The notes under the pieces were generated by a model, which searched no databases, had not been told where the DNA came from, and worked only from the letters and a program-made list of their open reading frames with translations. Below, one piece after another: positions 22,561-37,247 of a stretch of DNA of 64,000 nucleotides. Within the stretch, counting starts at the first letter, position 1. Each line of letters opens with the position of its first letter. Origin of the DNA: Devosia indica (GTDB taxonomy: Bacteria > Pseudomonadota > Alphaproteobacteria > Rhizobiales > Devosiaceae); the NCBI RefSeq assembly GCF_003056405.1, contig NZ_PYVZ01000004.1, positions 248,001-312,000 on the forward strand, written 5' to 3'. Position numbers and translations under genes: made by a program.

Positions 22561-23004
22561 ATGAAGCGGTTTTTTGAGCGGCATGTGCCGCATCTGCCCG
22601 AGCGGATGTTCAATATTGTCTCGGACCTTGAGGACTATCCGCGCTTCGTGCCCAATTGCCAGGCGATGCAGGTGCGTCCCGATCCGGCGGCCGGCGGCAA
22701 GGATATCCGGCTGGCTCGCATGACCATCTCTTTCGGGCCGATCACTCAGGCCTATACCAGCCGGGTGAGCCTGGATTCAGTGGCCCGAACGATCTGTGCC
22801 AAGGCCGTGGACGGTCCGTTTGCCTATCTCGACAGCGTCTGGAGCTTCGAGCCTGAAGGGCAGGGGACGCGGGTGCGGTTCGAAATTGATTTCAAGATTT
22901 CCAATCCGCTGATCGCTGCGGTGGCCGAGCCGGCGTTTGCCGCCAAGCAGGAAGAGATCATGCGCGCCTTCTGTGACGAAGCCGACAGGCGGTTTGGTGC
23001 CTAG
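22561..23004 (+). CDS. COQ10/RatA-type START-domain protein
   Basis: 147 residues matching the polyketide cyclase/COQ10 family: MKRFFERHVPHLPERMFNIV, DLEDYPRFVPNCQAMQV, YTSRVSLD, the DSVWSFEPEGQGTRVRFEIDF strand pair and the C-terminal helix. In eukaryotes COQ10 is a ubiquinone chaperone. In E. coli RatA was reported as a ribosome-directed toxin. In Alphaproteobacteria the linkage with lipA favours a quinone or membrane role, which remains an inference. In other rhizobial genomes cinA follows directly. Here the catabolic island intervenes. Confidence 0.85.
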   Translation: MKRFFERHVPHLPERMFNIVSDLEDYPRFVPNCQAMQVRPDPAAGGKDIRLARMTISFGPITQAYTSRVSLDSVARTICAKAVDGPFAYLDSVWSFEPEGQGTRVRFEIDFKISNPLIAAVAEPAFAAKQEEIMRAFCDEADRRFGA

Positions 23005-23030
23005 ACAGACACCAGACCCTGCCTTTGTTG

Positions 23031-24692
23031 TCAGGCCAAGTCGATATGCCCAATCGACCGGCGGGCAATTTCATCCCGGCTTTCCTCGTAGCCGGCGTCA
23101 GCATAGCGCATGACGCCGAGTGCTGTGTCGTTGGTGAGTGCATGGGAGAGCCGTTCCGCTCCCGCCTCAGTGCCATCAGCAACGACAGTAACACCGGCCG
23201 AGGTCATATAGCCGGAATAGCCACCACCGCCAGAATGGACGACAACCAGGTCGGCCATTGATGAGCACAGCAGCATGGCGTCGAGGATGGGCCAGTCGGC
23301 AATGGCGTCCGAGCCATCCTTCATGCGCTCGGTCATGATGTTGGGATGCGCCATGGCCCCTGCGTCAAGATGGTCGCGGCTGAAGGTGATCGGGCCGGCA
23401 AGTTCGCCCTTCTCGACCATTTCATTGACCGCTAGCGCCAGTTCGGTGCGCTCGCCATGGCCCAGCCATGCGATACGCGATGGCAGCCCCTCAAACGGCA
23501 CATGGCGCCTGGCAAGCTGGATCCAGTTGGTGACGATGCGGTTATCCGGGAACATCTGGAGCAGGCGGTCGTCGATCTTGCGAATGTCCTCGGGATCACC
23601 GGATTGCGCCATCCAGCGGAAGGGGCCGATGGCGCGGGCGAACAGCGGGCGCAGATAGGCCTCGGTGAAGATACGGATATCAAAGGCGTTTTCAACGCCG
23701 CCGTCCTTTGCATGGGTCCGAATGAGATTGCCATTGTCGAAGACTTCGGCGCCGCGCGCCTGAAAGTCGAGCATGGCGCGGACGTGATCGACGATGGAGG
23801 CCCGGCTGGCCGCCATCAGTTCGGCCGGATTGGACTTGCGCAGGCCCCGCACCTGTTCGAGCGAATAGCCCTTGGGCACATAGCCATAGACCAGGTCATG
23901 GGCCGAGGTCTGGTCGGTGACGATATCGGGTGTGATGCCGCGTCGCGCAATCTCGGGATAGATGTCGGCGGCATTGCCAACAAGGCCGATGGAGGTCGCG
24001 CGTTTTTCGCGGACGGCCGTGGCGATCATCTCGAGGGCCGTGTCGAGATCGGGGGCAATCTCTTCGAGATAACCGATTTCCTTGCGCTTGGCCGCGCGCT
24101 CGGGGTCGATATCGACGCAGAGGATGGCGGCGCCCGCCATGCGCCCGGCCAGCGGCTGGGCCCCACCCATACCGCCGAGGCCCGCGGTCAGGATGAAGCG
24201 CCCCGCCAGATCGCCATGGAAGCGGTTCTCGGCAATGCGCATGAAGATTTCATAGGTGCCCTGGATAACGCCCTGGCTGCCGATATACTGCCATGCGCCG
24301 GCGGTCAGTCCGCCCCAGCAGATCAGGCCCTTGCGCTCCAGCTCGTAAAACACCTCGGCCTTGGCCCACTGACCCACGATGTTGCAATTGGCCATGATGA
24401 CCAGAGGCGCCCTGGCGTGGGTCTTGAGGAGGCCGATCGGCTTGCCCGACTGGATGATGAGCGTTTGATCCTCGTCCATGGTCTTGAGCGCATGGACGAT
24501 GGCGTCGTGGCTGGCCCAGTTGCGGGCCGCCTTGCCGAGCGCGGCATAGACGACGAGATTGTCCGGGTCTTCGCCGACGCTCAGGACATTTTCAAGCAGG
24601 CGCAGCAGCGCTTCCTGGCGCCAGCCGCGGGCGCGGAGTTCGTTGCCGCCGGGTATGGGGAAGCGTGGATGGCGGGGGTTGGGGGTCGGCAT
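23031..24692 (-). CDS. Urocanase-family protein, probable thiourocanate hydratase
   Basis: 553 residues, full length for urocanase. The NAD-binding and core motifs are intact: LVVYAALGKAARNW, GLTAGAWQYIGSQGVIQGTY, FILTAGLGGMGGAQPLAG, DIVTDQTSAHD and FSRDHLDAGAMAHPN. Residues that I recall as near-invariant in true HutU differ. RICW around the active-site Cys reads RIAW here, and HHGGGVGMGYS reads HSGGGGYSGYM. This supports a different substrate. It is the last gene of a nine-gene operon that lacks hutI, hutG and hutF. The proposed reaction is hydration of thiourocanate to 3-(5-oxo-2-thioxoimidazolidin-4-yl)propionate. Ordinary urocanate hydratase is the alternative. Confidence 0.8.
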   Translation of the reverse strand: MPTPNPRHPRFPIPGGNELRARGWRQEALLRLLENVLSVGEDPDNLVVYAALGKAARNWASHDAIVHALKTMDEDQTLIIQSGKPIGLLKTHARAPLVIMANCNIVGQWAKAEVFYELERKGLICWGGLTAGAWQYIGSQGVIQGTYEIFMRIAENRFHGDLAGRFILTAGLGGMGGAQPLAGRMAGAAILCVDIDPERAAKRKEIGYLEEIAPDLDTALEMIATAVREKRATSIGLVGNAADIYPEIARRGITPDIVTDQTSAHDLVYGYVPKGYSLEQVRGLRKSNPAELMAASRASIVDHVRAMLDFQARGAEVFDNGNLIRTHAKDGGVENAFDIRIFTEAYLRPLFARAIGPFRWMAQSGDPEDIRKIDDRLLQMFPDNRIVTNWIQLARRHVPFEGLPSRIAWLGHGERTELALAVNEMVEKGELAGPITFSRDHLDAGAMAHPNIMTERMKDGSDAIADWPILDAMLLCSSMADLVVVHSGGGGYSGYMTSAGVTVVADGTEAGAERLSHALTNDTALGVMRYADAGYEESRDEIARRSIGHIDLA

Positions 24693-24695
24693 TTA

Positions 24696-25784
24696 TCAGC
24701 CCTCCCTGGACAGGGCGTAGGACGCCAGATCTATGCCCATGGTCTTTTCGACATGCGGATAGACGGATGGGTCGAGCACGCTGGATGACAGTGGAATGAT
24801 GGATTTGGAGACATGCAGCACAAAGATTTGCATGCCCTCCTCAAGCTGGCCGACGCTGAGCGGCTCGCCGTCTCGCGAAAGCGTGGTGATGACGTCCGGG
24901 AAAGTGGCCTGCCGGACGCCGTCTCGGGTGTCGACGGCCATATATTCGTTCATGACATGCAGGACGGCGCCGGTTTCAAGCGTGACAGTTCCGACGTCGA
25001 AGGCCTCGTTGGTATAGGTCACCGCCTTTTTGGTGATCTTGCCTTCAACCAGGATCGCCCCGCCGGTGGTCTTGACGATGGCATCGATGATGGCGCTGCC
25101 GCCCTTGCCCTCGGCTGCGATGATGGCTTCGCCGAGCTTGAGCGCCAGGGAAATGCCGCCAAGAGCCGCGTGCTGGCGGACATAGCTGGCGCGGACAGGA
25201 TTGCGGCAGGACGCTATGAAGCCACCGGACATGTCCGAGGCGGTGCGCAGGATCGGGGACACCTTGGCGGTGGCACCGCGGGTGACCAGCTCGATATAGC
25301 GGTTTTCCTCGCGATTGCCGCCCACGGCGGTCTGGATCATCGGTTCGGGCGAACCGGCCAAGCCAATCGAGCCCATATCGCCCGTGGGGTGCGCGCGGAT
25401 ATCGCCCACGGCATCGACCACTTTCAGGCCCAGCGCGGCCGAAGGCAGCCAGCCATTGAGCGTCGAGGACTTGCCATTCTGGCCGACCATCAGGCCGGCC
25501 AGTTTCTCGCCCAGCGCGTCCTGGAGCAGTTGCACTGCCTTGATGTAATCGACACCGCGCATTTCCCACGGTGTGGTCGAGGCCGGCGCGCCGATGGCGG
25601 CGGCTGTGGCCACCCAGTCGGTGTCGTTCAACTCCTCGACCGATACGAGTTCCGGTTTGCCGATGGAGACTGCCGCATAGCCCAGCATGCGCCCGTGATC
25701 GGCCCAGCCACCTCCGCCTGCCGCATAGACAGAGCCGCCTTTGACGGCCGCTTCCACGTCTTTGTCGGTAAGGATGCGTCCCAT
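24696..25784 (-). CDS. DUF917-family protein, probable thiohydantoin-propionate desulfhydrase
   Basis: 362 residues of the DUF917 family, often found beside hydantoinase-type genes. Visible landmarks are the Gly-rich VYAAGGGGWADHGRMLGY, the acidic-Gly stretch AHPTGDMGSIGL and a C-terminal part ending in the aliphatic IIPLSSSVLDPSVYPHVE. The start codon shares one base with the stop of the M20 hydrolase gene, and the stop lies three bases before the urocanase homologue, so it is firmly in the operon. In the ergothioneine route the step between the hydratase and the hydantoinase replaces the ring sulfur by oxygen with release of sulfide. This is the only otherwise unassigned enzyme for that step. 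From memory, the Burkholderia desulfhydrase belongs to this family. Confidence 0.72.
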   Translation of the reverse strand: MGRILTDKDVEAAVKGGSVYAAGGGGWADHGRMLGYAAVSIGKPELVSVEELNDTDWVATAAAIGAPASTTPWEMRGVDYIKAVQLLQDALGEKLAGLMVGQNGKSSTLNGWLPSAALGLKVVDAVGDIRAHPTGDMGSIGLAGSPEPMIQTAVGGNREENRYIELVTRGATAKVSPILRTASDMSGGFIASCRNPVRASYVRQHAALGGISLALKLGEAIIAAEGKGGSAIIDAIVKTTGGAILVEGKITKKAVTYTNEAFDVGTVTLETGAVLHVMNEYMAVDTRDGVRQATFPDVITTLSRDGEPLSVGQLEEGMQIFVLHVSKSIIPLSSSVLDPSVYPHVEKTMGIDLASYALSREG

Positions 25785-27037
25785 TATGCTGTCTCCTGCA
25801 GGTCTTTATCGAGCTGCCGCACTGCGTCGAGCAGCACGGCAGCGCCAAGCGCGATGTCCTCGGCCTTGGCGGATTCTTCAGGGGTATGGCTGCGGCCCTC
25901 GACACAAGGCACGAAGATCATCGCCGCCTTGGTGACCCGCGCCATCCAGGCGGTGTCGTGTCCGGCGCCGGAAGCCATGCGGCGATGCCGTGCGCCGATA
26001 GCGTCGCAGGCGGCATCGAGTGCGGCCAGGATGTCTTTATCGCAGGGCGTCGGCATATTGTCCGAGATAATGCGTGGCTCTGGCACGGTCACGCCGGTCT
26101 GTGCGGCAATGCCGGCAACGCCTTCACGCAATTGGGCGAGGAAATGCTCCATGTCGGCGCGGCGCTCGGCGCGCGCATCGATCAGCATGGTGACGCGCGA
26201 GGGCACCACATTGGCGGCATTGGGCTCCATGCGGAACTCGCCGACCGTGGCCGCGAAGTGGAATTCACCGGCGGCCAGGTCGGTGGCAAAGCGCTCCACC
26301 GCCAAGGCAATCCAGGCGGCTGCCGACAGGGCGTCCTTGCGACTGCCCATGGGGGTGGTGCCGGCGTGATCGGCGCGCCCCTCGACGGCTATCTCTATGC
26401 GGGAAATGCCTGCAATGGCGGTGACCACCCCGATGTCGAGGTTCTCGTTTTCGAGCACGGGACCCTGTTCAATATGCAGCTCAAGGAAAGCAGCAATATC
26501 GTTGCGCGTCGTCGTGTCTATGGCATTACCTCCGACTTCGGCGATTGCGCTGGCAAGGGTAACGCCCTCGATCTGTCGGCCCAGCCAGTCTTCGGGGCGG
26601 GTTCCGGTGATGCCGCGGCTGCCGACGCAGGAGACGCCGAAAATCGAGACCTCTTCGGCGAGGAAATCGATGATCTCCAGATCGTGGTCTAGTTCTATGT
26701 TCTTGTCCGCAAGGGCGCGGGCGACTTCAAGGGCGGCGGACACTCCGGCGATACCGTCATAGCGGCCACCATCGGGCACGGTATCGGAATGCGAGCCCAG
26801 CATGATGGTGCCGAGGCCGGGTTTGTTGCCCTTTCGGGAGCCGATGAGGTTGCCGACGGCGTCGATGTGAGTGGTGAGGCCGGCGGCCTGGAAGCGCTGC
26901 GCCAGCCAGTCGCGGCCCTTGAGAAACATGGGGGTGAAGGCGCGGCGGGTATATGGGCGGTCGGGCTCGGTGATTTTGGCCAAAGCCGAGATGTCCTCGT
27001 CGATGCGCGCGGCGCTGGTGGGCAGGTTGCGGGTCAT
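25784..27037 (-). CDS. M20-family amidohydrolase, probable N-carbamoyl-L-glutamate hydrolase
   Basis: 417 residues of the hydantoinase/carbamoylase (HyuC/AllC) branch of M20 metallopeptidases. The di-metal site is visible in GSHSDTVPDGGRYDG, FLAEEVSIFG and ELHIEQGPVLEN. The dimerisation-domain His is in GRADHAGTTPMG and the late metal ligand in SHTPEE. These enzymes cleave N-carbamoyl (or ureido) amino acids to the free amino acid, CO2 and ammonia. With a hydantoinase directly upstream (4-base overlap) and a DUF917 gene downstream, the expected product is L-glutamate. Allantoate amidohydrolase is the main alternative, but no other ureide genes are present. Confidence 0.85.
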   Translation of the reverse strand: MTRNLPTSAARIDEDISALAKITEPDRPYTRRAFTPMFLKGRDWLAQRFQAAGLTTHIDAVGNLIGSRKGNKPGLGTIMLGSHSDTVPDGGRYDGIAGVSAALEVARALADKNIELDHDLEIIDFLAEEVSIFGVSCVGSRGITGTRPEDWLGRQIEGVTLASAIAEVGGNAIDTTTRNDIAAFLELHIEQGPVLENENLDIGVVTAIAGISRIEIAVEGRADHAGTTPMGSRKDALSAAAWIALAVERFATDLAAGEFHFAATVGEFRMEPNAANVVPSRVTMLIDARAERRADMEHFLAQLREGVAGIAAQTGVTVPEPRIISDNMPTPCDKDILAALDAACDAIGARHRRMASGAGHDTAWMARVTKAAMIFVPCVEGRSHTPEESAKAEDIALGAAVLLDAVRQLDKDLQETA

Positions 27038-28395
27038 GCGCGCGCCTCGGGACGGACGAAGCGACCTGTGCCTGGTTCGGACAAAACATCTGTTCCGTCA
27101 AAGACTTGCTGGCCACGAAGCCAGGTGCCGGCGACGGTCCAGGGCAGTTCGATGCCGTTATACGGGCTCCAGCCGACGACGTTATGGCCGCTGCGGGCGG
27201 CGTCATAGACCTGCGGGCGATCGACCAGAACGGTGATATCGGCGTCCTTGCCGGGCGCCAGCGCGCCCTTGACGTGGTCGAGGCGGAAGTGGCGGGCGGG
27301 GTTTTCCGCCATCAGTTTGGCCGCCCAGGTCAGCGGCACGCCATGGTCCAGGGCCCCCTTGATGAACAGCGGCACCATGACTTCGAGGCCGGGCACGCCG
27401 GAGGCGTTGGCGAGCATGTCCGGATTGGTCTTGCGGTCCTCGGACCAGCTGACGTGATCGGTCGAGATCAGAGTGACATTGCCGGCCGCGACATGCTGCC
27501 AAAGCTTTTCGACTTCGGCGCGCGGACGGATCGGCGGATTGATCTTGGCCTTGCCGCCGAGCCGGGCGACGTCGTTTTCCTCGTCCAGCGTCAGATAGTG
27601 AATGCAGCATTCGATGGTGGCGGCGTAGCCCTGTTCGCGATAGGTGCGGGCGATCTCGTAGCCGCGGGCGAGCGAGCAATGCACCACATGGGCGGGGCAG
27701 CCGGTCTGCGCGCCGGTCTCGTAGATCTGCAGCGAGGCCAGCAGTTCGGTCAGCGGCGGGCGGCTGAGGCCATGCGCGCGATAATCGGTGATGCCGGCCG
27801 CCTTGACCCTGGCCATGGCCGCACGGACCATTTCGTCGTCCTCGTTGTGAACGCCGGCTGTCAGGCCGGTTTTGGCGACGGCAGCAAAGCATTCTTCCAA
27901 CAGGGCAGGGGGGATGCGAGGGAAGCGGATCGGATCGGTGCCGAAAGTCGAGAACTTGAAGGCGGCAACGCCGGCTTCAGCCTGTTCGGCTATGCGGGCG
28001 GCTCCCTCCTCCGGATTGATCGTGCCATAGAGGGCGAAGTCGACACGCGCCTGCGAGCTGGCATGTTCGATCTTGATGCGGACCGCGTCGGCGGAGCAAA
28101 CAAGATTGCCTTCATCATAGGGCATATCGACGATGGTAGTGACGCCGCCGGCCGCCGCCGAGCGCGTGGACCAGATGAAGTCTTCCTGATCCTTCTGGCT
28201 GAGCGAGTGGGTCTGGGCATCGATGGCGCCGGGCAGGATCATGGCGTTGCCGAGATCGTGACGTTCCTTCGCGTCAGGACCTGCGCCCTCGCCGACCAAA
28301 GCGATCTTGCCATCGCGCACGGCAATATGGCCACGCGCGATGACGCGGTCCGGTAGGACGATGGTGCCGGTGAGGCTGAGGTCGAAGTCGGACAT
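27034..28395 (-). CDS. Dihydropyrimidinase/hydantoinase-family amidohydrolase, probable hydantoin-5-propionate hydrolase
   Basis: 453 residues counted from ATG 28395, behind GGAAAG. The open frame runs much farther upstream but only through the neighbouring permease. It is a cyclic amidohydrolase with a carboxylated-lysine region AAFKFSTFGTDP and metal histidines in GVHNEDDE, PAHVVHCSLARG and STDHVSW. The first metal motif is unusual. Where relatives have HxH, this protein reads Ala-Gln-Thr-His (Gln61, His63; DNA codon CAG). Ring opening of a 5-substituted hydantoin to the N-carbamoyl amino acid fits the downstream carbamoylase. Dihydropyrimidinase or allantoinase activity is less likely in this context. 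Confidence 0.83.
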   Translation of the reverse strand: MSDFDLSLTGTIVLPDRVIARGHIAVRDGKIALVGEGAGPDAKERHDLGNAMILPGAIDAQTHSLSQKDQEDFIWSTRSAAAGGVTTIVDMPYDEGNLVCSADAVRIKIEHASSQARVDFALYGTINPEEGAARIAEQAEAGVAAFKFSTFGTDPIRFPRIPPALLEECFAAVAKTGLTAGVHNEDDEMVRAAMARVKAAGITDYRAHGLSRPPLTELLASLQIYETGAQTGCPAHVVHCSLARGYEIARTYREQGYAATIECCIHYLTLDEENDVARLGGKAKINPPIRPRAEVEKLWQHVAAGNVTLISTDHVSWSEDRKTNPDMLANASGVPGLEVMVPLFIKGALDHGVPLTWAAKLMAENPARHFRLDHVKGALAPGKDADITVLVDRPQVYDAARSGHNVVGWSPYNGIELPWTVAGTWLRGQQVFDGTDVLSEPGTGRFVRPEARA

Positions 28396-28415
28396 GGTCT
28401 GTAGTCTTTCCGTAA

Positions 28416-29168
28416 TCAGGCGTTGGCGCGCGCGCCCTGGCCAGTGCGGCGGGTCAGCGCCCGCTCGATGGCCGAGAGGCCGTCGTAAATCAGCACGGCG
28501 AGCGCACCCACAATGAGCCCGCCCTGCAGCACGAAGGCGGTATTGCTGGACAGGAGCCCAGCGATGATGACTTCGCCGAGCGTGCGCGCCGCAACGGTGG
28601 ACCCGATGGTGGCCGTGGCCAGCGAAATCACAGTGGAGAGACGCACGCCGGCAAGAATGACCGGCAGCGCCAGAGGCAGCTCGACGCGAACAAGGCGTTG
28701 CCCGCCGGTCATGCCCATGCCCCGCGCCGCTTCGGTCACTGTGGGCGGCAGCCCGGTGAGGCCGGTCAGGGTGTTTTCGAAGATCGGCAGGAGACCATAG
28801 AGAAACAGGGCCACAAGCGTCGGGGCAGTGCCGAAACCGAGCATGGGCACGGCCAGGGCCAGCACGGCGACGGGCGGGAAGGTCTGCCCGACATTGGCGA
28901 GGCTGCGCGACAGCGGCAGGAATTCGGCGCCGAAGGGACGCGTCACGAGGATGGCGAGGCCAACTGCGACGGTGGTGGCCAGAGCTGTCGCGATGGCAAC
29001 GATCAGAAGGTGATTGAGTGTCAGGTCGAGCAGGCTGCCCTGATTGTAGATGACCGGCTGATTGTTCTTGGTCAGCGGCTCGAAGACGAAGGCAAAGCTT
29101 TCCGGGCTGACCAGGAAACCCACCAGCAAGGCCAAGACGAGGAGGCGGATGACGAGGCCAATGCTCAT
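28416..29168 (-). CDS. ABC transporter permease, OsmU/EgtU-like quaternary-amine family (second permease)
   Basis: 250 residues counted from the ATG at 29168, which overlaps the end of the ATPase gene by four bases. It has six or so hydrophobic segments and the permease EAA loop TVTEAARGMGMTGGQRLVRVELPLALPVILAGVR-type sequence (about residues 140-170), which contacts the ATPase. The family is that of betaine, choline and ergothioneine importers (OpuB, YehYW, EgtU). It forms a heterodimer with the first permease two genes upstream. The hydantoinase gene begins 20 bases downstream. Confidence 0.85.
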   Translation of the reverse strand: MSIGLVIRLLVLALLVGFLVSPESFAFVFEPLTKNNQPVIYNQGSLLDLTLNHLLIVAIATALATTVAVGLAILVTRPFGAEFLPLSRSLANVGQTFPPVAVLALAVPMLGFGTAPTLVALFLYGLLPIFENTLTGLTGLPPTVTEAARGMGMTGGQRLVRVELPLALPVILAGVRLSTVISLATATIGSTVAARTLGEVIIAGLLSSNTAFVLQGGLIVGALAVLIYDGLSAIERALTRRTGQGARANA

Positions 29169-30097
29169 GACGGCCTCGCGGCGCACCTGGCCAGGTCGTT
29201 TCGGCTGATGCGACCAATCAGCTTGCCGTCCTCGATAACCGGCAAGGCTTCCCGCCCCGACCAGAGGCATTCGGCATAGGCCTCACGGAGGCTGGCGCCA
29301 GCAGAGATCGGATCGCCCGCCGCTTCGCCAGGTTCGACCAGGGAAAGCACCTTCGCCAGCGAGAGCATACGGAAGGGCCGGTCGCCTCCAATGAGCTCGG
29401 CGACGAAATCGGTCGCCGGATTGGCGATGATTTCCTGGGGGGTGGCGTATTGCAGCAATTTTCCACCATCCATGACCGCAATGCGACTGCCCAGGTGGAT
29501 GGCCTCTTCCATGTCATGGGTCACCAGCACAACGGTGGTGTTGAACCGCTTCTGGATGGCGAGCAGGTCATCCTGGGCCTTGGAGCGAATGACCGGGTCG
29601 AGCGCGCCAAAAGGTTCGTCCATCAGGAGAATGTTGGGCTCGGCGGCCAAGGCGCGGGCCACGCCGACGCGCTGCTGCTGTCCGCCGGACAATTCATTGG
29701 GCATGCGATCACGGAACTGGGCCGGATCGAGCTGGAACAGTGACAGCAGCTCGTCGACCCGTTTGGTGATGCGGGACTTTTCCCAGCCGAGCAGATGGGG
29801 AACGGTGCCGATGTTCTGTCCCACTGTACGGTGGGGAAACAGGCCGTGGCCCTGAATGGCGTAGCCGATGCGGCGGCGCAGCTCATAGGCGGGAACGTCG
29901 CGCGTATCCTGCCCGTCGATCAGCACTTTGCCCGCGGTTGGCTCGACCAGCCGGTTGACCATGCGCATCAAGGTGGTCTTGCCCGACCCCGAGGTGCCGA
30001 CGATGGCGCAGAGTTCGCCGGCTCCGATGGTCAGGGAGACCCTGTCGACCACCGTCGTCTCACCATAGACTTTGGTCAGCTCCTGGATTTCGATCAT
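29165..30097 (-). CDS. ABC transporter ATP-binding protein with C-terminal CBS domain (OsmV/EgtV-like)
   Basis: 310 residues: Walker A GTSGSGKTTL, Q-loop region, signature NELSGGQQQRVGVARAL, Walker B NILLMDEPFGALDP and the H-loop VTHDMEEA. After residue 240 a CBS-type regulatory segment follows (SAGASLREAYAECLWSGREA, then LPVIEDGKLIGRISRNDLAR). CBS-bearing ATPases typify the quaternary-amine ABC family (OpuA/OsmV/EgtV). The gene overlaps both permease genes by four bases (ATGA), so the three are translationally coupled. Confidence 0.9.
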   Translation of the reverse strand: MIEIQELTKVYGETTVVDRVSLTIGAGELCAIVGTSGSGKTTLMRMVNRLVEPTAGKVLIDGQDTRDVPAYELRRRIGYAIQGHGLFPHRTVGQNIGTVPHLLGWEKSRITKRVDELLSLFQLDPAQFRDRMPNELSGGQQQRVGVARALAAEPNILLMDEPFGALDPVIRSKAQDDLLAIQKRFNTTVVLVTHDMEEAIHLGSRIAVMDGGKLLQYATPQEIIANPATDFVAELIGGDRPFRMLSLAKVLSLVEPGEAAGDPISAGASLREAYAECLWSGREALPVIEDGKLIGRISRNDLARCAARPS

Positions 30098-31284
30098 TGG
30101 GCACGCTCCCTGGTGCTGACCATTTCAACAAAGGCATCGAGGACCACTGCGGCGGCAAAGGCCAGGGCCACGGTGGGGACGGCGCCGAGCAGCACCAGAT
30201 CCATGGCGGTCTGGCCGATGCCCTGGAACACGAAGACGCCAAAGCCGCCGCCACCGATCAGAGCAGCGATGGTGGCCAGGCCAATATTCTGGACCAGCAC
30301 GATGCGGATGCCGGTGAGGATGACGGGGAAGGCCAGGGGCAGTTCTACCGAAAACAGGCGCTGCCGATTGGTCATGCCCATGCCGCGCGCCGCGTCATTG
30401 GCGGCCTCGGGCACGTTGACCAGGCCCACCACGGTGTTCGAAACGATGGGCAGCAGCGAATAGGCAAACAGAGCGACCATTGCCGGGGCAATGCCGATGC
30501 CCGAGATGCCGATGGCCGAGGCGCCCGGCACATTGGCCGCGACCCAGGCCAGCGGGGCGATCAGCAGCCCGAACAGCGCGATCGAGGGGATGGTCTGGAC
30601 GATATTGAGGGTATTGAGGACGGCGGCGCGCAGTGGTTTGACGCGATAGAGCAGAATGCCCAGTGGCACGCCGGCAAGGATGGCGATAGCGACCGAGCCG
30701 AAGGCCAGAAGCAAATGGGTACGGGCCTCGGCCCAGAAGGCCGGCGCGCGATTGGCGAATTCCTTGAGGATCGACAGATCGTTCCAGGCGCCGCTCCAGA
30801 GCAGTGCTGCCATCGCCACCCCGACCAATGCGAGGATAGTGATGCGCTGCCATGGACCGAATTTGAGCCGCGTGAGGGCGTCTGTGACCAGCAGCGCGAA
30901 AGCGAAGGTCAGAAGCCAGAACCCGGCGCCGGGCGAGACCCGCGCAAAGGTGTTGTCAGGGGGCGTCAGAAACGTCGCCGACTGGCCGATCAGGACGAAG
31001 AGCGTGGCCAGCACCAGGAAGCCGACACCGAGCTTGGCGAGAGGATTGACGCGCAGCAGCATGGTCGCGACGCCGATCAGCAGGACAAGACCGAGCAGGA
31101 CCGCCGAGGGAGAGCTAAGGGCGGATGGGATCAGCAGCCCCTCGCCCAGGACAATGCGATTGGCGCGGAAAACCGCAAAGGGCAGAAAGACGGCAGCGGC
31201 AGCAATCAGGGCGATCAGCACGCCGAGCTTGTCGAAGGCCGGCCATGCGGCACGGCTTTGGCTCGTGGTATCAGCGGTCGTCAT
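30094..31284 (-). CDS. ABC transporter permease, OsmU/EgtU-like quaternary-amine family (first, long permease)
   Basis: 396 residues, about 150 more than the partner permease. The extra N-terminal half holds four or five hydrophobic segments (LIALIAAAAVFLPFAVF, LLGLVLLIGVATMLL, VGFLVLATLFVLIG and others). The C-terminal half is the transport domain with the EAA loop EAANDAARGMGMTNRQRLF. The long/short permease pair matches YehY/YehW of the OsmU system. The stop overlaps the ATPase start. The 155 bases upstream, before the binding-protein stop, contain a large hairpin. Confidence 0.87.
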   Translation of the reverse strand: MTTADTTSQSRAAWPAFDKLGVLIALIAAAAVFLPFAVFRANRIVLGEGLLIPSALSSPSAVLLGLVLLIGVATMLLRVNPLAKLGVGFLVLATLFVLIGQSATFLTPPDNTFARVSPGAGFWLLTFAFALLVTDALTRLKFGPWQRITILALVGVAMAALLWSGAWNDLSILKEFANRAPAFWAEARTHLLLAFGSVAIAILAGVPLGILLYRVKPLRAAVLNTLNIVQTIPSIALFGLLIAPLAWVAANVPGASAIGISGIGIAPAMVALFAYSLLPIVSNTVVGLVNVPEAANDAARGMGMTNRQRLFSVELPLAFPVILTGIRIVLVQNIGLATIAALIGGGGFGVFVFQGIGQTAMDLVLLGAVPTVALAFAAAVVLDAFVEMVSTRERAQ

Positions 31285-31371
31285 AAGGCCCCCTCGCGCC
31301 TCCTGGCAGGCATGGCGTCATCCGGACGCTGTCGAGACTGTCCCCGCATATCGAGACCGTCCGCAGCCAGT

Positions 31372-31401
31372 GGGGTGGCGCGCATCTGGCACCGCCACCC
31401 C
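31372..31401 (-). other. Intra-operon hairpin between binding-protein and permease genes
   Basis: GGGGTGGCG and its complement CGCCACCCC form a nine-pair stem around a 12-base loop. It lies in the 155-base gap between the substrate-binding-protein stop and the permease start, with no T-tract. A 12-base direct repeat GGCAGGCATGGC (31305-31316 and 31402-31413) brackets it. Such hairpins commonly protect the upstream message, giving more binding protein than membrane subunits. Confidence 0.5.
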
Positions 31402-31439
31402 GGCAGGCATGGCCTCCGCCAGCGGCGAAGGCCGACGGT

Positions 31440-32351
31440 TCAGCTCAGAAAGCCGTTGGTTGTCAGGAAGTCGGTGGCCACGCTGGACGCTGCCTCGCCG
31501 CCAACCTGCACCCGGCCATTGAGCTCCTGCAGGGTTTCGAGCGTCAGCGCTTCGAAGACCGGCGCCAGCAGTTCCTCGATCTGCGGATATTCGGTGAGCA
31601 CTTCCTCACGAATGATCGGGGCGGGCTGATAGACCGGCTGCACGCCCTGATCGTCCTCAAGCACCTTGAGGCCGGAAGGGGCGATGCCGCCATCGGTGCC
31701 ATAGACCATGGCCGCATTGGCGCCATTGGTGCCCTGCGCGGCAGCCGCGATGGTGGCCGCAGTGTCGCCACCCGAAAGCGTGATCAACTGGTCGGGCGAG
31801 AGGGTGAAGCCATAGACTTCCTGGAATTTGGGCAAAGCGGCCGGCGAGTTCACGAACTCGGCTGAAGCTGCCAGCACCACTTCGCCACCACCGGCAACAT
31901 ATTCGCCGAACTGGGTGAAGGTATCCAGGCCATTGGCCTCGGCCACATCCTGACGGATGGCCACGGCCCAGGTGTTGTTGGCGGGCGACGGCGTCAGCCA
32001 GACGATCTGGTTGGCGTCGTAATCGAGCTTCTTGGCTTCCTCGTAGGCCGACTGGGCATTGTTCCAGAGCGGATCATCGGCCCGTTCGAAGAAGAAGGCC
32101 GCATTGCCGGTATATTCGGGATAGATGTCGATCTCGCCCGCGGTGATGGCTTCGCGCACAATCGGCGTGCCGCCAAGCTGGATCCGGTCTTCGACCGGAA
32201 TGTCGTTGGCTTCGAGCACCTGTTTGATGATGTTGCCAAGCACACCGCCCTCAGTGTCGATCTTTGACGAAACGACCACCTGCGCCTGTGCGGCGGTCAT
32301 GGTCAATGCAAGTGCGGTGGCCGCACCCAATAGCGTTTTCGTTAGGCGCAT
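31440..32351 (-). CDS. ABC transporter substrate-binding protein, OsmX/EgtU-SBP-like
   Basis: 303 residues with a clear signal peptide (MRLTKTLLGAATALALTMTA, cleavage after AQA near residue 23). A family-typical core follows: SSKIDTEGGVLGNIIKQVLE, GGTPIVREAITAGEIDIYPEYTG-type ligand loop (about 60-82) and the C-terminal TLETLQELNGRVQVGGE. The family binds betaine, choline, carnitine or ergothioneine. Context favours ergothioneine, possibly histidine betaine. A GGAGAGAG ribosome-binding site precedes the ATG. The mature protein is expected in the periplasm. Confidence 0.85.
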   Translation of the reverse strand: MRLTKTLLGAATALALTMTAAQAQVVVSSKIDTEGGVLGNIIKQVLEANDIPVEDRIQLGGTPIVREAITAGEIDIYPEYTGNAAFFFERADDPLWNNAQSAYEEAKKLDYDANQIVWLTPSPANNTWAVAIRQDVAEANGLDTFTQFGEYVAGGGEVVLAASAEFVNSPAALPKFQEVYGFTLSPDQLITLSGGDTAATIAAAAQGTNGANAAMVYGTDGGIAPSGLKVLEDDQGVQPVYQPAPIIREEVLTEYPQIEELLAPVFEALTLETLQELNGRVQVGGEAASSVATDFLTTNGFLS

Positions 32352-32367
32352 GACTCTCTCCTTTGTG

Positions 32368-32385
32368 AGCCGGAAGTTTCCGGCT
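32368..32385 (-). other. Inverted repeat between the lyase and binding-protein genes
   Basis: AGCCGGAA, two bases, TTCCGGCT makes an eight-pair perfect stem in the 55-base gap between the lyase stop (32407) and the binding-protein start. No T-tract follows. It may be a processing or stability element inside the operon, or an internal operator. Confidence 0.35.
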
Positions 32386-32406
32386 GTCCCTACCCTGTAA
32401 GCACTG

Positions 32407-33990
32407 TCAGTTCATGACAGTGGTTGGTTCAGTCCCTGTCTGTGGGCCGAGTGCAAAATACTCGTCCAACTCCATAATGGCGGAATGTGAAATCAGTTCG
32501 CCAACAAAGTCATCGGACGCCAGAGCCGCTTCCACCGCCTCGACTTCTGCTGAGAGCGGACGGTCCTCGCGATAGAAGGCCGCGTGCCGGCGCACCAACT
32601 CATAAACCATACCCGGCACATTGCCCGGATTGTCGCCCGAAATGTCCATGGCCTGGGCGGCGAGCAACCCCTCAAGGGCCGCAAGGCGTCGCAGGGCGCC
32701 CGCCTGACGTTCGAAACGCTCGACGACCAGAGGGAGAAAGGCCGCCTCATCCTCAAGACCATTGGCAACAACGAGAGACTGTGCGGAGATCGCGTTGGAG
32801 AGCGAAAGGCAGCGTACGAACAGTTCGCCGGCCAGCTTGATGATCGGCCCGAACCCGGTCGCTATCGCTCCCGGGGCCACAAGGTTGACCGGCAGATCCC
32901 GTCGGCCGCCATTGCCCAGAAGCACGCAGCGATTGAAGGAATTGCGGGCCACATGGGCCAGCGCCAATTGGGCGGTCTGCAGAAACACCGTGACATCGAG
33001 CGGCAGCGAGCCGCCGGAAGTGAGCACCTGGCCGCCTGCGACCACCGGATTGTCGTCAGTGCGGCCGGTCGCAGCCAGAACTGTACGTCCGGCAACGGTC
33101 AGGCTTTCAAAGGCTGTCGCAAATACCTGGCTCATCATGCGGATCGAGAGCGGATCCTGAACATGGGTGCCCGTGGGCCAGTCCCAACCCATGGCGTTGA
33201 AATAGAGCCAGGCACCGACACCAGCCTCGCGCTCGGTGCCGACATGGGCCACCGCTTTCCAGGGATCGCGCGAGGCGCCCAGAGCCCCGGCCGTGGTCAA
33301 GCCGGTTGCCAGCAGCACGCGCACCGTAGTGGCCGCCTGGCGAATGGCGCGCATAGCGGCGGCATAGCCAACGGCATTGGTCGAGACCGACGCCAGGCTG
33401 TCGCGCGGTGCCAGCTTGAATGGCTTGAGGCCCGCGCGCGCCATGGCTTCAGCGGCCGGCAGGCGTTCACCGGAGTGATAAGCTTCACCAACACCGGTCA
33501 AGACAGCGCCGATCTGCCCCATCAGTCCGATATCGGCACAACCAATCGAGCCGGTACGGCGCACGACCGGGATGACGTCTGCGTCAAGCAGCCCTTGAAA
33601 GGCCGAAACCAGCTCAGGTGTGCACCCGACGCGCCCGGTCAAGGCCATATTGATCCGGATCGCCAGGGCGTTGCGGACCACCTCGAGCGGAAAGGCGCTG
33701 CCCGTGCCGAAGTGGTGGGCGCGCACCAGGCCGGTACTGAAGGCATCAAGATCGTCGTCTGACCAGGAAATATCCTTCATTGCCCCCACGCCAGTGGTGG
33801 CCCCATAAACCGGCTGCCCGGAATTGATGGCGTCTTCCATGACCTGGCGAGCCTTGTGGACGCGCTCAAGCGCGGCGGCGTCCGGTACGATCAATGCTCT
33901 ACGCGACCCAATCCGCACAAAATCAGCAAAGCTGAGTGGCTTGCCTTCAAGCCGGATCGTGTCGGTCGGTATGGCGATTTGCGCGTTCAC
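32407..33990 (-). CDS. Histidine ammonia-lyase-family protein without MIO triad, probable ergothionase
   Basis: About 527 residues counted from GTG 33990, which has AAGGAG 11 bases upstream; the frame stays open to 34053 without a ribosome-binding site. The aromatic amino acid lyase fold is clear from VYGATTGVGAMKD (catalytic Tyr about 62) and from RRTGSIGCADIGLMGQIG. The Ala-Ser-Gly triad that cyclises to the MIO cofactor in histidine ammonia-lyases is replaced by Cys151-Ala152-Asp153, and the following NGTQ-type motif is VSTNA. Ergothionases are HAL homologues that eliminate trimethylamine from ergothioneine by acid/base catalysis. First gene of the nine-gene operon, divergent from the LysR gene. 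Confidence 0.8.
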   Translation of the reverse strand: MNAQIAIPTDTIRLEGKPLSFADFVRIGSRRALIVPDAAALERVHKARQVMEDAINSGQPVYGATTGVGAMKDISWSDDDLDAFSTGLVRAHHFGTGSAFPLEVVRNALAIRINMALTGRVGCTPELVSAFQGLLDADVIPVVRRTGSIGCADIGLMGQIGAVLTGVGEAYHSGERLPAAEAMARAGLKPFKLAPRDSLASVSTNAVGYAAAMRAIRQAATTVRVLLATGLTTAGALGASRDPWKAVAHVGTEREAGVGAWLYFNAMGWDWPTGTHVQDPLSIRMMSQVFATAFESLTVAGRTVLAATGRTDDNPVVAGGQVLTSGGSLPLDVTVFLQTAQLALAHVARNSFNRCVLLGNGGRRDLPVNLVAPGAIATGFGPIIKLAGELFVRCLSLSNAISAQSLVVANGLEDEAAFLPLVVERFERQAGALRRLAALEGLLAAQAMDISGDNPGNVPGMVYELVRRHAAFYREDRPLSAEVEAVEAALASDDFVGELISHSAIMELDEYFALGPQTGTEPTTVMN

Positions 33991-34118
33991 GTCGTCCGGG
34001 TCTCCTTGCAAGGGCGACGCTATTGGAAAATTTTGAACCATGGGATATCCCAAAAGCTGAACAGGCTATGTTCTATCAGTGGGCACGTTGACTATGTGCT
34101 CAACAAAGAGGCATCGAG
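33991..34118. promoter_or_regulatory. Divergent control region of the catabolic operon and lysR gene
   Basis: 128 bases between the two predicted starts. It holds a perfect 12-base palindrome TGGGATATCCCA (34041-34052) and an interrupted dyad GTTGA-N8-TCAAC (34087-34104). The second dyad, 15 bases before the regulator ATG, has the form expected for a LysR-type operator and could serve autoregulation. No convincing -35/-10 pair was identified. Confidence 0.45.
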
Positions 34119-35279
34119 ATGGACACTTCGACCTTGCTCCTGGTCGATATTGTTTTGCACCAGCGTAGTCTGCGCGGTGCAGCGCGGCATTCCGGACGTC
34201 CTGCATCGAGCATTGCTGCGGCCCTGGCGCGGTGCGAAAGCGCGCTGTCGACCAGTCTTTGCCAGCGGGCCGGCTCGGGACTTGTCTTTACGCTCGAGGC
34301 CAATCGTCTCGCACCATCGATCACCGAGGCGGCCCAAGTGGCGCGCCGCCTGTATGCCCCCGGGTCCGATCCTTTCTTATCCACCGTCAGACTGCAAGCG
34401 CTGGGACGATTTATCGAGGTGGCCGAGCGTGGGTCCATCCGGCAGGCGGCGCGGGCCTTGATGCTGGGGCAGCCACAATTGTCCAGGCAATTGGCCCATC
34501 TCGAAACCGCCCTCGGGCACACGCTGCTCGAGCGGGGAACGGGGGGGACAGAGTTGACCGCAACGGGCGTGCGGCTATTGGACGATTGCAGCCGGTTGCT
34601 CCAGCTCTGGGGTCAGATCTCGCGAACCTCCGAGGACCGGTTTCGCCGCGCCCAGGCCACCGTCAGGCTGGGCTCGATCATGCCGCTTGGCTATGAAAGC
34701 GAGATCGCCCGGCAATTGGCAAAGCTGACGGCGAGCTGGGCCATAACCCGCCCCAAGCAACCGCTGTTCATCAGTTCGACAACGGCAGAGGACCTCTTGC
34801 GGGGGCTCAAGAGTGGTGCCTTCGATGTGGTGCTGCTCGATACCGAGAGATTGCCCGAAGATCTTGAGGGCGCGCCCATTGTGGCGTCTGGCCTTGCCAT
34901 TGTGGGCGCCAAAGGCACGGACATCGCCGCAGCGCTGCGAGACCGGCCAATTGCTTTGCCCAGCCCGCGCAGCGGGTTGCGCCTGCGTATCGATCAGCTT
35001 CTGGACATGACCTTTAGCGACGCGGAACGGGACCGGCTGACCCTGCTCGAGATCGACTCCATTCCGGTCATCCTGAATCTGGTGCTGGAATACGGCTTTG
35101 TTTCTGTCCTGCCGAGGGCTTCTGTCGCTTCGATCCGCCCGGACTTGCACAGTATCTCTCTGCCTTCGACATTTGACATGCAATACTGGCTGTGCTGGCT
35201 CAAATCGGCGGGGCATTCGGCCGCTGGAATCGCCGTTCTTGATGCGATCGAGCGTGCAACCGTGCCAGCCCCCCACTGA
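34119..35279 (+). CDS. LysR-type regulator with two tandem HTH domains
   Basis: 386 residues, about 80 more than a normal LysR protein. The first 75 (LLLVDIVLHQRSLRGAARHS, then PASSIAAALARCESAL) resemble a degenerate LysR-type winged HTH. A second, canonical HTH follows at about 90-155 (RLQALGRFIEVAERGSIRQA, then AARALMLGQPQLSRQLAHLE). The remaining 220 or so form a LysR effector-binding domain (SIMPLGYESEIARQLAKL, FDVVLLDTERLPE). It is divergent from the lyase operon and most likely its pathway regulator, with the effector being ergothioneine or an intermediate. The frame is continuous, so the duplication is not a sequencing join. Confidence 0.85.
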   Translation: MDTSTLLLVDIVLHQRSLRGAARHSGRPASSIAAALARCESALSTSLCQRAGSGLVFTLEANRLAPSITEAAQVARRLYAPGSDPFLSTVRLQALGRFIEVAERGSIRQAARALMLGQPQLSRQLAHLETALGHTLLERGTGGTELTATGVRLLDDCSRLLQLWGQISRTSEDRFRRAQATVRLGSIMPLGYESEIARQLAKLTASWAITRPKQPLFISSTTAEDLLRGLKSGAFDVVLLDTERLPEDLEGAPIVASGLAIVGAKGTDIAAALRDRPIALPSPRSGLRLRIDQLLDMTFSDAERDRLTLLEIDSIPVILNLVLEYGFVSVLPRASVASIRPDLHSISLPSTFDMQYWLCWLKSAGHSAAGIAVLDAIERATVPAPH

Positions 35280-35319
35280 TTGTGCCCGTATGGGGCGCCA
35301 AGCAAGGAGACCGTGTGCC

Positions 35320-36705
35320 ATGACGAAGACCTTCGATGCGATCATCATTGGTGCAGGTCAGGCCGGCCCGCCCTTGGCAGCGCGCTTGACGGCGGCGGGC
35401 CAAACCGTTGCGCTGATCGAGCGCGAACAGGTTGGCGGCACCTGCGTCAATACGGGCTGCACCCCGACCAAGGCCTTGGTGGCCAGCGCAAAGATCGCGC
35501 ATTCGGTTGCCCATGCAAAAGAACACGGGATCAGTATCGGATCTAAACCCGAGGTTGATTTCAATGCCGTGATGCGCCGGGCCATGGCCATCAGCGAAAA
35601 GTCCCGCAGCGGCGTCGAAGGCTGGCTGGACGGCATGAGCGGGCTGACGCTGGTGCGCGGCCATGCGCGCTTTACCGGGCCCAAACGCATAAGCGTGGGC
35701 GGCGACAGCTATGAGGCGGATCAGATCTTTCTCAATGTCGGCGCCCGTGCCGCCATTCCTGACATGCCTGGCCTGGATCAGGTCGATGTGCTGACCAATT
35801 CGGACCTGTTCTGGCTGAAGGAGCGCCCCGATCATCTGGTCATTGTCGGCGGCAGCTATATCGGGCTCGAATTTGCGCAGATGTTCCGGCGCTTCGGGTC
35901 TGGTGTCACCATTGTCGAGCGCGGTCCGCATCTGGCAGGCAAGGAGGATCCGGAGGTCTCCGAGGCGATCCGCGACGTTCTGGAAGGAGAAGGTATTGCG
36001 GTGCGGACCAACGCCGAGTGCATCCATTTTGCGCGCTCGGAGACCGGGCCCTTGGTGGGGGTGGATTGCACCACCGGCGAACCCGAAATTGCCTGTTCCC
36101 ACATCCTGCTCGCGGTCGGCCGCCAGCCAAATACTGACGATCTGGGCATCGAGCAAACGGGGGTGGAATGCGACAAGCGCGGATATGTTCGGGTCAATGA
36201 CCGGCTGGAGACCAACATCCCAGGCATCTGGGCCCTGGGAGACTGTAACGGGAAAGGCGCCTTCACCCACACCTCGTATAATGACTTTGAAATTGTTGCG
36301 TCCAACCTGCTCGATGGCGGCGCCCGCAAGGTCTCGGACCGCATCATGAGCTATGGTCTTTACATTGATCCACCGCTGGGCCGCACCGGGCTGTCGGAAG
36401 CCGAGGCCCTCGCGACGGGCCACAAGGTCCTGATCGGCAAACGCCCGATGACCCGGGTGGGCCGCGCCGTCGAGAAAGGTGAAACGCAGGGGCTGATGAA
36501 GATTGTCGTCGACGCAGAAACCCGCGCAATCCTTGGCGGCGCAATATTCGGGCCGGGGGGAGATGAGGCGATCCATTCCATTCTGGACATGATCCAGATG
36601 GGGGCGACGGTCGATGCACTGACCAACACAATGCACATCCATCCAACGGTCGGTGAGCTGATCCCGACCATTTCAGGCGAACTCATACCCGCCGAAGGTC
36701 CATAG
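35320..36705 (+). CDS. Flavoprotein pyridine-nucleotide disulfide oxidoreductase (mercuric-reductase-like)
   Basis: 461 residues counted from ATG 35320 with AGGAG ahead of it; the frame is open to 35098 inside lysR. It has the FAD motif AIIIGAGQAGPPLAARL and the redox-active CxxxxC in GGTCVNTGCTPTKAL. An NAD(P)-binding motif VGGSYIGLEFAQMF, the second FAD region IWALGDCNGKGAFTHTSY and the C-terminal His-Glu pair in HIHPTVGEL are also present. All catalytic parts of a disulfide reductase are there. No N-terminal heavy-metal domain or C-terminal Cys pair of true MerA is seen. It lies just after lysR, on the same strand. A role in reducing ergothioneine disulfide or in sulfur handling is a guess from context. 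Confidence 0.82.
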   Translation: MTKTFDAIIIGAGQAGPPLAARLTAAGQTVALIEREQVGGTCVNTGCTPTKALVASAKIAHSVAHAKEHGISIGSKPEVDFNAVMRRAMAISEKSRSGVEGWLDGMSGLTLVRGHARFTGPKRISVGGDSYEADQIFLNVGARAAIPDMPGLDQVDVLTNSDLFWLKERPDHLVIVGGSYIGLEFAQMFRRFGSGVTIVERGPHLAGKEDPEVSEAIRDVLEGEGIAVRTNAECIHFARSETGPLVGVDCTTGEPEIACSHILLAVGRQPNTDDLGIEQTGVECDKRGYVRVNDRLETNIPGIWALGDCNGKGAFTHTSYNDFEIVASNLLDGGARKVSDRIMSYGLYIDPPLGRTGLSEAEALATGHKVLIGKRPMTRVGRAVEKGETQGLMKIVVDAETRAILGGAIFGPGGDEAIHSILDMIQMGATVDALTNTMHIHPTVGELIPTISGELIPAEGP

Positions 36706-36740: not shown

Positions 36741-37247
36741 CTACGGACTCGGCGGGTCGCTCGTCAGAACTTGCAGGACAAGGTCCAGCGCCGCGTCGAC
36801 GGTGGCTTTCCTGATGCCGTCGCGGCCGAGATCGCCGAAGCGGTGTTCGATGACGACGGTGGCCAGTTCGGACGAGACGGCGACATAGACGAGGCCCACG
36901 GGTTTTTTCTCGGTGCCGCCATCGGGACCGGCAATGCCCGTCGCGGCGACGGCAAAATCGACTCGGGCGGTGTTGCGGGCGCCATCGGCCATGGCGCGGG
37001 CCACCTGATTGCTGACGGCGCCATAGTCCCCGATGAGGCGCGGCTGCACCTGGATCATGCGCGACTTGGCCGAATTGGCATAGGTGATGTAGCCGCCATA
37101 GATGGCCGCGGAGGCGCCAGGAATATCGGTAAGGGCCGAAGCGATCATGCCGCCGGTGCAGCTTTCAGCGGTGACCAGGGTCTGGTTGCGCTCGGCGAGG
37201 AGATCGATGATCTGCTGGCCCGCAGGGGGTTTAGCCTTGGCTGCCAT
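36741..37247 (-). CDS. pncC: CinA C-terminal-domain protein, nicotinamide-nucleotide amidohydrolase
   Basis: 168 residues, only the C-terminal CinA domain: LVTAESCTGGMIASALTDIPG (catalytic Ser region), AVSNQVARAMADGARNTARV and AVAATGIAGPDGGTEKKPVG. Stand-alone proteins of this kind deamidate NMN to nicotinate mononucleotide in NAD recycling. The start (37247) abuts the ispDF stop at 37248 and both are on the minus strand, so they are co-transcribed. In other rhizobial genomes this gene follows the coq10-like gene. Here about 13.7 kb of catabolic genes separates them. Confidence 0.9.
   Translation of the reverse strand: MAAKAKPPAGQQIIDLLAERNQTLVTAESCTGGMIASALTDIPGASAAIYGGYITYANSAKSRMIQVQPRLIGDYGAVSNQVARAMADGARNTARVDFAVAATGIAGPDGGTEKKPVGLVYVAVSSELATVVIEHRFGDLGRDGIRKATVDAALDLVLQVLTSDPPSP

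Follow-up and report, generated by a model that had tools for sequence, protein, structure and literature searches.

Bacteria are reportedly able to degrade ergothioneine, an antioxidant from mushrooms, in five steps, a pathway said to have been reconstituted in vitro by Beliaeva, Leisinger and Seebeck in 2021. The ergothionase of Burkholderia sp. HME13 (Muramatsu 2013) is discussed in a passage of PMC13405746, which states that ergothionase works without the 4-methylideneimidazole-5-one (MIO) cofactor. A passage of a 2020 review (PMC7653990) holds that transporters for ergothioneine must be present in bacteria that have ergothionase, and it names none. For the transporter EgtUV, a passage of PMC9732360 describes the contacts of EgtU with its ligand, an invariant Gly244 and a Phe293/Tyr337 switch. 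Here, we analyze a stretch of 64,000 nucleotides from Devosia indica (contig NZ_PYVZ01000004.1, positions 248,001 to 312,000; hereafter the window, whose own positions are used throughout). On its minus strand, positions 23031-34041 hold nine tightly spaced genes, and we consider it about 90% probable, judging from the sequence, that this block serves the import of ergothioneine and its breakdown to glutamate.

By the same kind of evidence, the nine genes are a complete ergothioneine-to-glutamate operon in which the pathway is a known one and the candidate importer is of another family than EgtU. Compared with the published five-step pathway and the HME13 ergothionase, the locus encodes the same five enzyme classes (steps 2 to 5 recognized by NCBIfam models, step 1 by residues and a tree) and adds an OsmF-type importer, a LysR-type regulator with tandem helix-turn-helix (HTH) domains and a flavoprotein. 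The enzymes are known in kind and repeat the published pathway, here in Devosia and its relatives. The first-pass annotation had described nine packed minus-strand genes of named classes; a check of the open reading frames confirmed their order, and Pfam confirmed the classes (aromatic lyase, OpuAC binding protein, two permeases, ATPase, amidohydrolase, M20, S-Me-THD, formerly DUF917, and urocanase):

32407..34041, minus strand: MIO-less aromatic-lyase homolog, predicted ergothionase (ergothioneine trimethylamine-lyase), from its match to 6s7j, residues and tree
31440..32351, minus strand: periplasmic binding protein of OsmF/YehZ type (NF049931, PDB matches 4nd9 and 5teu, pocket residues)
30094..31284, minus strand: importer permease 1 (PF00528, with the Pfam domain from residue 205)
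29165..30097, minus strand: importer ATPase, ProV-like (PF00005; TIGR01186 at 297 bits, below the cut-off of 326.6)
28416..29168, minus strand: importer permease 2 (PF00528; start 29168 picked among candidates)
27034..28395, minus strand: ErtD, hydantoin-5-propionate amidohydrolase (NF058538)
25784..27037, minus strand: ErtE, N-carbamyl-L-glutamate amidohydrolase of the M20 class (NF058540)
24696..25784, minus strand: thiohydantoin desulfurase, formerly DUF917 (NF058529)
23031..24692, minus strand: thiourocanate hydratase, a urocanase homolog (NF058530, tree)

Three junctions overlap by 4 bp (permease 1/ATPase, ATPase/permease 2 and ErtD/ErtE) and ErtE overlaps the desulfurase by 1 bp, with gaps of 3 bp between the desulfurase and the hydratase and 20 bp between permease 2 and ErtD. 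The widest gaps lie between the binding protein and permease 1 (155 bp) and between the lyase and the binding protein (55 bp). Position 34118, taken as the upper limit in the first-pass annotation, immediately precedes the divergent LysR gene, and the start codon of the lyase is at 34041 (ATG) or 34053 (TTG).

In the route that we propose, the OsmF-type binding protein, the two permeases and the ATPase would bring ergothioneine into the cell. The MIO-less lyase would eliminate trimethylamine to give thiourocanate, which the urocanase homolog would hydrate to thiohydantoin propionate. The former DUF917 enzyme would swap sulfur for oxygen with release of sulfide, ErtD would open hydantoin-5-propionate, and ErtE would hydrolyze N-carbamyl-L-glutamate to glutamate. 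We base the enzyme assignments on family models, on residues and on trees, and infer the importer substrate and the regulation.

Four of the enzymes exceed the curated NCBIfam equivalog cut-offs for proposed steps 2 to 5, which bears out the earlier suggestion that the enzymes fit the five ergothioneine steps, with the lyase placed by residues and tree. The hydratase reaches 1048 bits on NF058530 (cut-off 930), the thiohydantoin desulfurase 599.5 bits on NF058529 (cut-off 440) and ErtD 790.5 bits on NF058538 (cut-off 600). ErtE reaches 594 bits on NF058540 (cut-off 520) and scores higher, 653 bits (cut-off 486), on the less specific PRK12893.1-5. These scores also bear on whether the substrate could instead be ergothioneine sulfonate or S-methylated ergothioneine. 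A bacterial pathway for ergothioneine sulfonate is known from the title of a reference, and the separate NCBIfam models for the S-methyl enzymes match here as well; both, however, stay under their cut-offs (753 vs 880 bits for the hydratase and 283 vs 450 for the desulfurase) while the thio models pass, and a thiohydantoin desulfurase would be of no clear use on a sulfonate. We regard these substrates as very improbable, and the S-methyl route was rejected on its models.

The genome sets used for comparison (same genus, class and phylum) were drawn with one genome per species and are not exhaustive. The hydratase cut-off was passed in 5 of 385 genomes of the class draw and 6 of 398 of the phylum draw, the D. 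indica genome being included in both. Urocanase-family scores in these two draws are bimodal, with hydratases at 963-1061 bits and the next match at 722 bits or less. In a quick tree of 69 rows, 19 hydratases together with 7ned separate from 49 HutU rows with a Shimodaira-Hasegawa-like approximate likelihood ratio test (SH-aLRT) support of 100; ten hydratase rows with close neighbors in the tree were left out, one of them the window's own. At 27 positions, hydratases and HutU are fixed differently. The urocanase homolog thus falls outside the HutU rows; a place among them would, according to the first-pass annotation, have refuted its reading.

The same question was asked of the lyase, and its answer was the same: the lyase lies outside HutH. 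In a tree of 39 rows, 18 ergothioneine-pathway (ert) lyases and the Treponema ergothionase separate from 20 MIO rows with split support of 100/98 (the second lyase of genome G032, two rows repeating others and seven ert rows with close neighbors in the tree were omitted; labels beginning with G denote genomes and those with L loci). The best solved match of the window lyase is the Treponema denticola ergothionase 6s7j (189 bits, against 127.6 bits for HutH), and hutH models stay far under their cut-off (199 vs 539 bits). Where HutH has its Ala-Ser-Gly triad, the window lyase has a Cys-Ala that is one residue shorter, as do L024, 17 same-genus loci and the other four same-genus loci. On chemical grounds, a trimethylated amine leaves readily without help from an MIO cofactor, which accounts for the missing triad. 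Like 6s7j, the window lyase and the 21 other same-genus pathway lyases carry Ser at the Asn195 position, Leu at the 280 position and Lys four residues after a conserved Gly (in the window lyase, Ser220, Leu298 and the Lys four residues past Gly398). The equivalents of Tyr53, His83, Arg283 and Glu414 are retained in the aligned lyase rows (the window, the 17 same-genus loci and L024 among them), and the conserved Tyr, His and Glu are shared with 6s7j. The two proteins are nevertheless distant, with Cys-Ala-Asp in the window for Glu-Gly-Asp at the triad site. The triad is kept by Pseudomonas putida HutH and by two of the three same-genus HutH-type rows aligned, the third being the second lyase of G032; six of seven further lyase rows lack it (G322 has Cys-Gly), and the seventh, from G146, keeps it. 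Residues and tree indicate that the gene first labeled HAL is not HutH and is a predicted ergothionase.

A diverged histidine-utilization operon acting on histidine would explain the homology to HutH and HutU, and the hydratase does pass the general hutU model (694.6 vs 375 bits). Against it stand the missing MIO triad, the position of both proteins outside the two Hut row sets, the presence of a desulfurase, the low hutH score and the lack of any HutI over the cut-off in the window genome (best 47.7 vs 298.15 bits). We find this explanation barely credible, and the canonical hut reading was rejected on cut-offs, residues, both trees and the HutI result. The first-pass annotation had listed HutI, HutG, HutF and HutC as missing; this holds at genome level for HutI, and for the other three within the operon, as the genome-wide Hut search covered HutH, HutU and HutI. 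With 69 contigs totaling 3.95 Mb (completeness 99.98), the genome contains one urocanase match and one Lyase_aromatic match in all, so that genome-wide searches found no second urocanase and no second aromatic lyase.

Several observations weigh against the ergothioneine assignment of the enzymes. The window lyase passes no NCBIfam model in the Pfam and NCBIfam scan, and no ergothionase model appeared among the matches, so that the assignment of step 1 depends on the residues and the tree. The position of Phe329 in HutH is occupied by Ser in the window lyases and by Phe in ergothionase. The long branches of the Treponema ergothionase and of the G322 lyase make their finer placing in the tree unsure. 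A missing triad alone is no proof, because the second lyase of G032 (L121 10104-11597, 469 bits) also lacks it while keeping Asn195 and carrying no ergothionase Lys. The hydratase of G146 is paired with a triad-bearing lyase. Two same-genus stretches are incomplete: neither ErtD nor ErtE was found in that of G013, and no ErtD in that of G029. One result in favor is weakened as well. EgtD has no match in the window genome, so that the cell appears to make no ergothioneine by the EgtD route and would scavenge it, but none of the control genomes passed the EgtD cut-off either.

Some of these unusual loci deserve a brief description. The second lyase of G032 adjoins ABC transporter genes, and it grouped weakly with MIO rows in a preliminary lyase tree in which four rows (L079, L081, L084 and L087) had been read in the wrong frame. 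The MIO-triad lyase of G146 (L214, 6314-11106) has as neighbors a DUF917 homolog and a thiourocanate hydratase (963 bits); this locus might be a variant pathway for free thiohistidine that releases ammonia. In two other same-genus loci (L119 4997-9307 and L120 6087-10404), an MIO-type lyase occurs together with a hydantoinase resembling ErtD (60%) and an M20 protein (46-47%), and no urocanase or desulfurase match was found in either stretch.

The pathway is conserved as a unit within the genus. Hydratase and MIO-less lyase occur in an identical set of 22 of the 37 same-genus genomes, D. indica included, where MIO-less lyases were counted as matches under 300 bits confirmed by residues, and lyase fragments in G036 and G059 were assigned to neither lyase kind. 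Outside the D. indica genome, 22 hydratase loci exceed the cut-off, and gene order was compared at 20 of them; the other two are the incomplete stretches of G013 and G029. For 15 of these 20 loci, all nine genes are kept in the same order, and because of this the arrangement is more than chance. The importer is missing at L024, L028 and L031. At L026, lyase and importer are not nearby and both lie on another contig (L114), and L034 runs into the end of its contig, with the remainder in L116. Of the 35 named loci holding the lyase, 29 are from Devosia, led by D. marina at 98% identity. A search for virus-borne copies gave one pattern match, which is not a relative.

Outside the genus, G100 and G322, from two other families, have the identical gene order with lyases that are 49% and 37% identical; in G100, permease 1 and the ATPase lie within one open frame. 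In G058, G533, G668 and G719 all five enzymes are present with no OsmF adjoining, and G075 and G146 hold only lyase, desulfurase and hydratase. In G703, three enzymes stand beside an ABC ATPase of another type: at L218 (4912-11312), hydantoinase, desulfurase and hydratase are next to an ATPase 35% identical to that of the window and two small genes resembling membrane proteins. These genes are a possible alternative importer.

The importer had been described as of OsmU/EgtUV type. Our results support membership of the EgtU superfamily and the shared ligand cage, and they assign the importer to the OsmF/YehZ type, different from the EgtU type, by family model and pocket residues. The binding protein scores 494 bits on NF049931 (OsmF, cut-off 400), with 4nd9 and 5teu as best PDB matches, and the window genome holds one OsmF. 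A quaternary-amine cage is formed by Tyr80, Asn126, Trp128, Tyr217 and Tyr241 (Trp replacing one Tyr), and Lys30, Ile31 and Glu165 match the EgtU residues Lys242, Ile243 and Glu375 that touch the carboxylate, sulfur and imidazole. In contrast to EgtU, the binding protein is a separate chain. It also lacks the EgtU hallmark residues, with Asp32 for Gly244, Tyr80 for Phe293 and Ala124 for Tyr337, and EgtU membership was rejected for this reason; further differences are Ser for Arg379, a tentative equivalence, and Asn for Thr296. The available passage of PMC9732360 states the correspondence with AfProX for G244, F293 and Y337; the other equivalences were derived by constant offset and alignment, those of E375, R379 and D381 being tentative. 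As in OsmF/YehZYXW, the curated OsmF model is passed and the four genes stand in the order of the free same-genus copies; the difference is that the window importer sits within a catabolic operon. The Lys, Ile, Asp and Glu are common to E. coli OsmF, which has Arg where linked, free and Agrobacterium rows have Ser (Gly in one linked row).

These residue differences, which count against an ergothioneine importer, are joined by the distribution. In the same genus, OsmF was found in 20 of 22 genomes with the pathway and in 10 of 15 without it (p 0.095, not significant); it was not found in the pathway genomes G002 and G012. Ten stretches (L102-L111) from ten pathway-less same-genus genomes carry the same four-gene importer operon free of the catabolic genes. 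In the importer tree, in which identical sequences were merged, linked and free copies interleave: the two kinds change places 7 times, at least 4 of these changes being forced by well-supported branches, against 11 expected from shuffles. No alignment column splits linked from free copies at an 80% majority. The idea of a dedicated importer, proposed in the first-pass annotation and tested here by tree and distribution, was dropped on these grounds.

The enzymes may accordingly degrade ergothioneine while the importer serves ordinary betaine uptake of the OsmF kind, its place in the operon being a matter of history. Free operons in ten genomes and interleaved copies are what one would see in that case, the NCBI family name refers to glycine betaine, and the cage residues suit quaternary amines generally. 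It is less easily reconciled with the linkage, as no more than 1 kb separates the genes for lyase and binding protein in 20 of the 22 pathway genomes, and in G036 the lyase stands beside the importer although the other four enzymes sit on another contig; the gene order shared by two other families points the same way. Arg149 of AfProX, reportedly named in a paper title as the switch to a high-affinity state, is replaced by Ser in 52 of 53 pathway-linked rows, but all 12 free rows have Ser as well (the linked rows were not deduplicated, and the same genomes occur twice). The E. coli member is said, again in a paper title, to be low-affinity and non-osmoregulatory. We therefore consider a betaine system unlikely. 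In the class draw without the D. indica genome, OsmF passed its cut-off in three of four hydratase genomes and in 5 of 380 others (Fisher p 2.4e-5, uncorrected for relatedness); in one of the three, G075, it lies about 200 kb away from the pathway. The importer is a good candidate for an ergothioneine transporter, not a proven one, as far as pocket residues and gene linkage can indicate.

The operon is part of a larger block with two plus-strand genes:

34119..35279, plus strand: divergent LysR-type regulator with two tandem HTH_1 domains, the likely regulator (HTH_1, LysR_substrate)
35320..36705, plus strand: FAD-dependent class I disulfide oxidoreductase (PRK06370; start inferred from the onset of the family match)
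23028..36692, no strand: whole block, limits by alignment to G010, between coq10 (22561-23004) and cinA (36741-37247)

The three closest relatives carry the same block, alignable along its entire length (about 13.7 kb, 80-89% identity), and neither coq10 nor cinA adjoins it there. Of the 36 other same-genus genomes, 22 were examined for the site, 19 of them in short loci and three in longer stretches; in all 22, coq10 and cinA are at most about 2.2 kb apart, which leaves no room for the block. Two close relatives hold genes resembling an alpha/beta-hydrolase and a PAS protein, on a look at the sequence, at the coq10-cinA site (L259 2170-4123 and L260 14618-16580). The pattern suggests a variable site. 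No repeat pair was found at the block ends among the repeats listed (20 of 56 direct families and 25 of 46 inverted pairs); the longest repeat listed joins the two permease genes. Promoter and terminator scans found no more than in shuffled sequences.

The LysR protein has two HTH_1 matches, one of 27.8 bits (cut-off 26.6) within residues 1-90 and one of 58.7 bits within residues 91-386, and it also matches LysR_substrate; homologs of 371-440 residues or so adjoin the lyase in a subset of loci. The flavoprotein reaches 746 bits on PRK06370 (cut-off 629). Among 86 loci, a close copy (64-88%) occurs only at those of the three closest relatives, each present twice. It might act on ergothioneine disulfide.

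We found no paper tying OsmF to ergothioneine at the level of titles and beginnings of abstracts, with subscription papers outside the search; the one paper with both words concerns oral cancer. As a tentative possibility, alphaproteobacterial OsmF/YehZ importers, linked or free, could all be ergothioneine importers. The glycine betaine name would then be wrong for this branch, the operon would reveal the ligand, and free copies would take up ergothioneine for protection and not for food. What the Devosia locus adds to the published pathway is the importer, a concrete and testable candidate for an ergothioneine transporter. If the binding protein binds ergothioneine, this importer family would gain a better-founded ligand.

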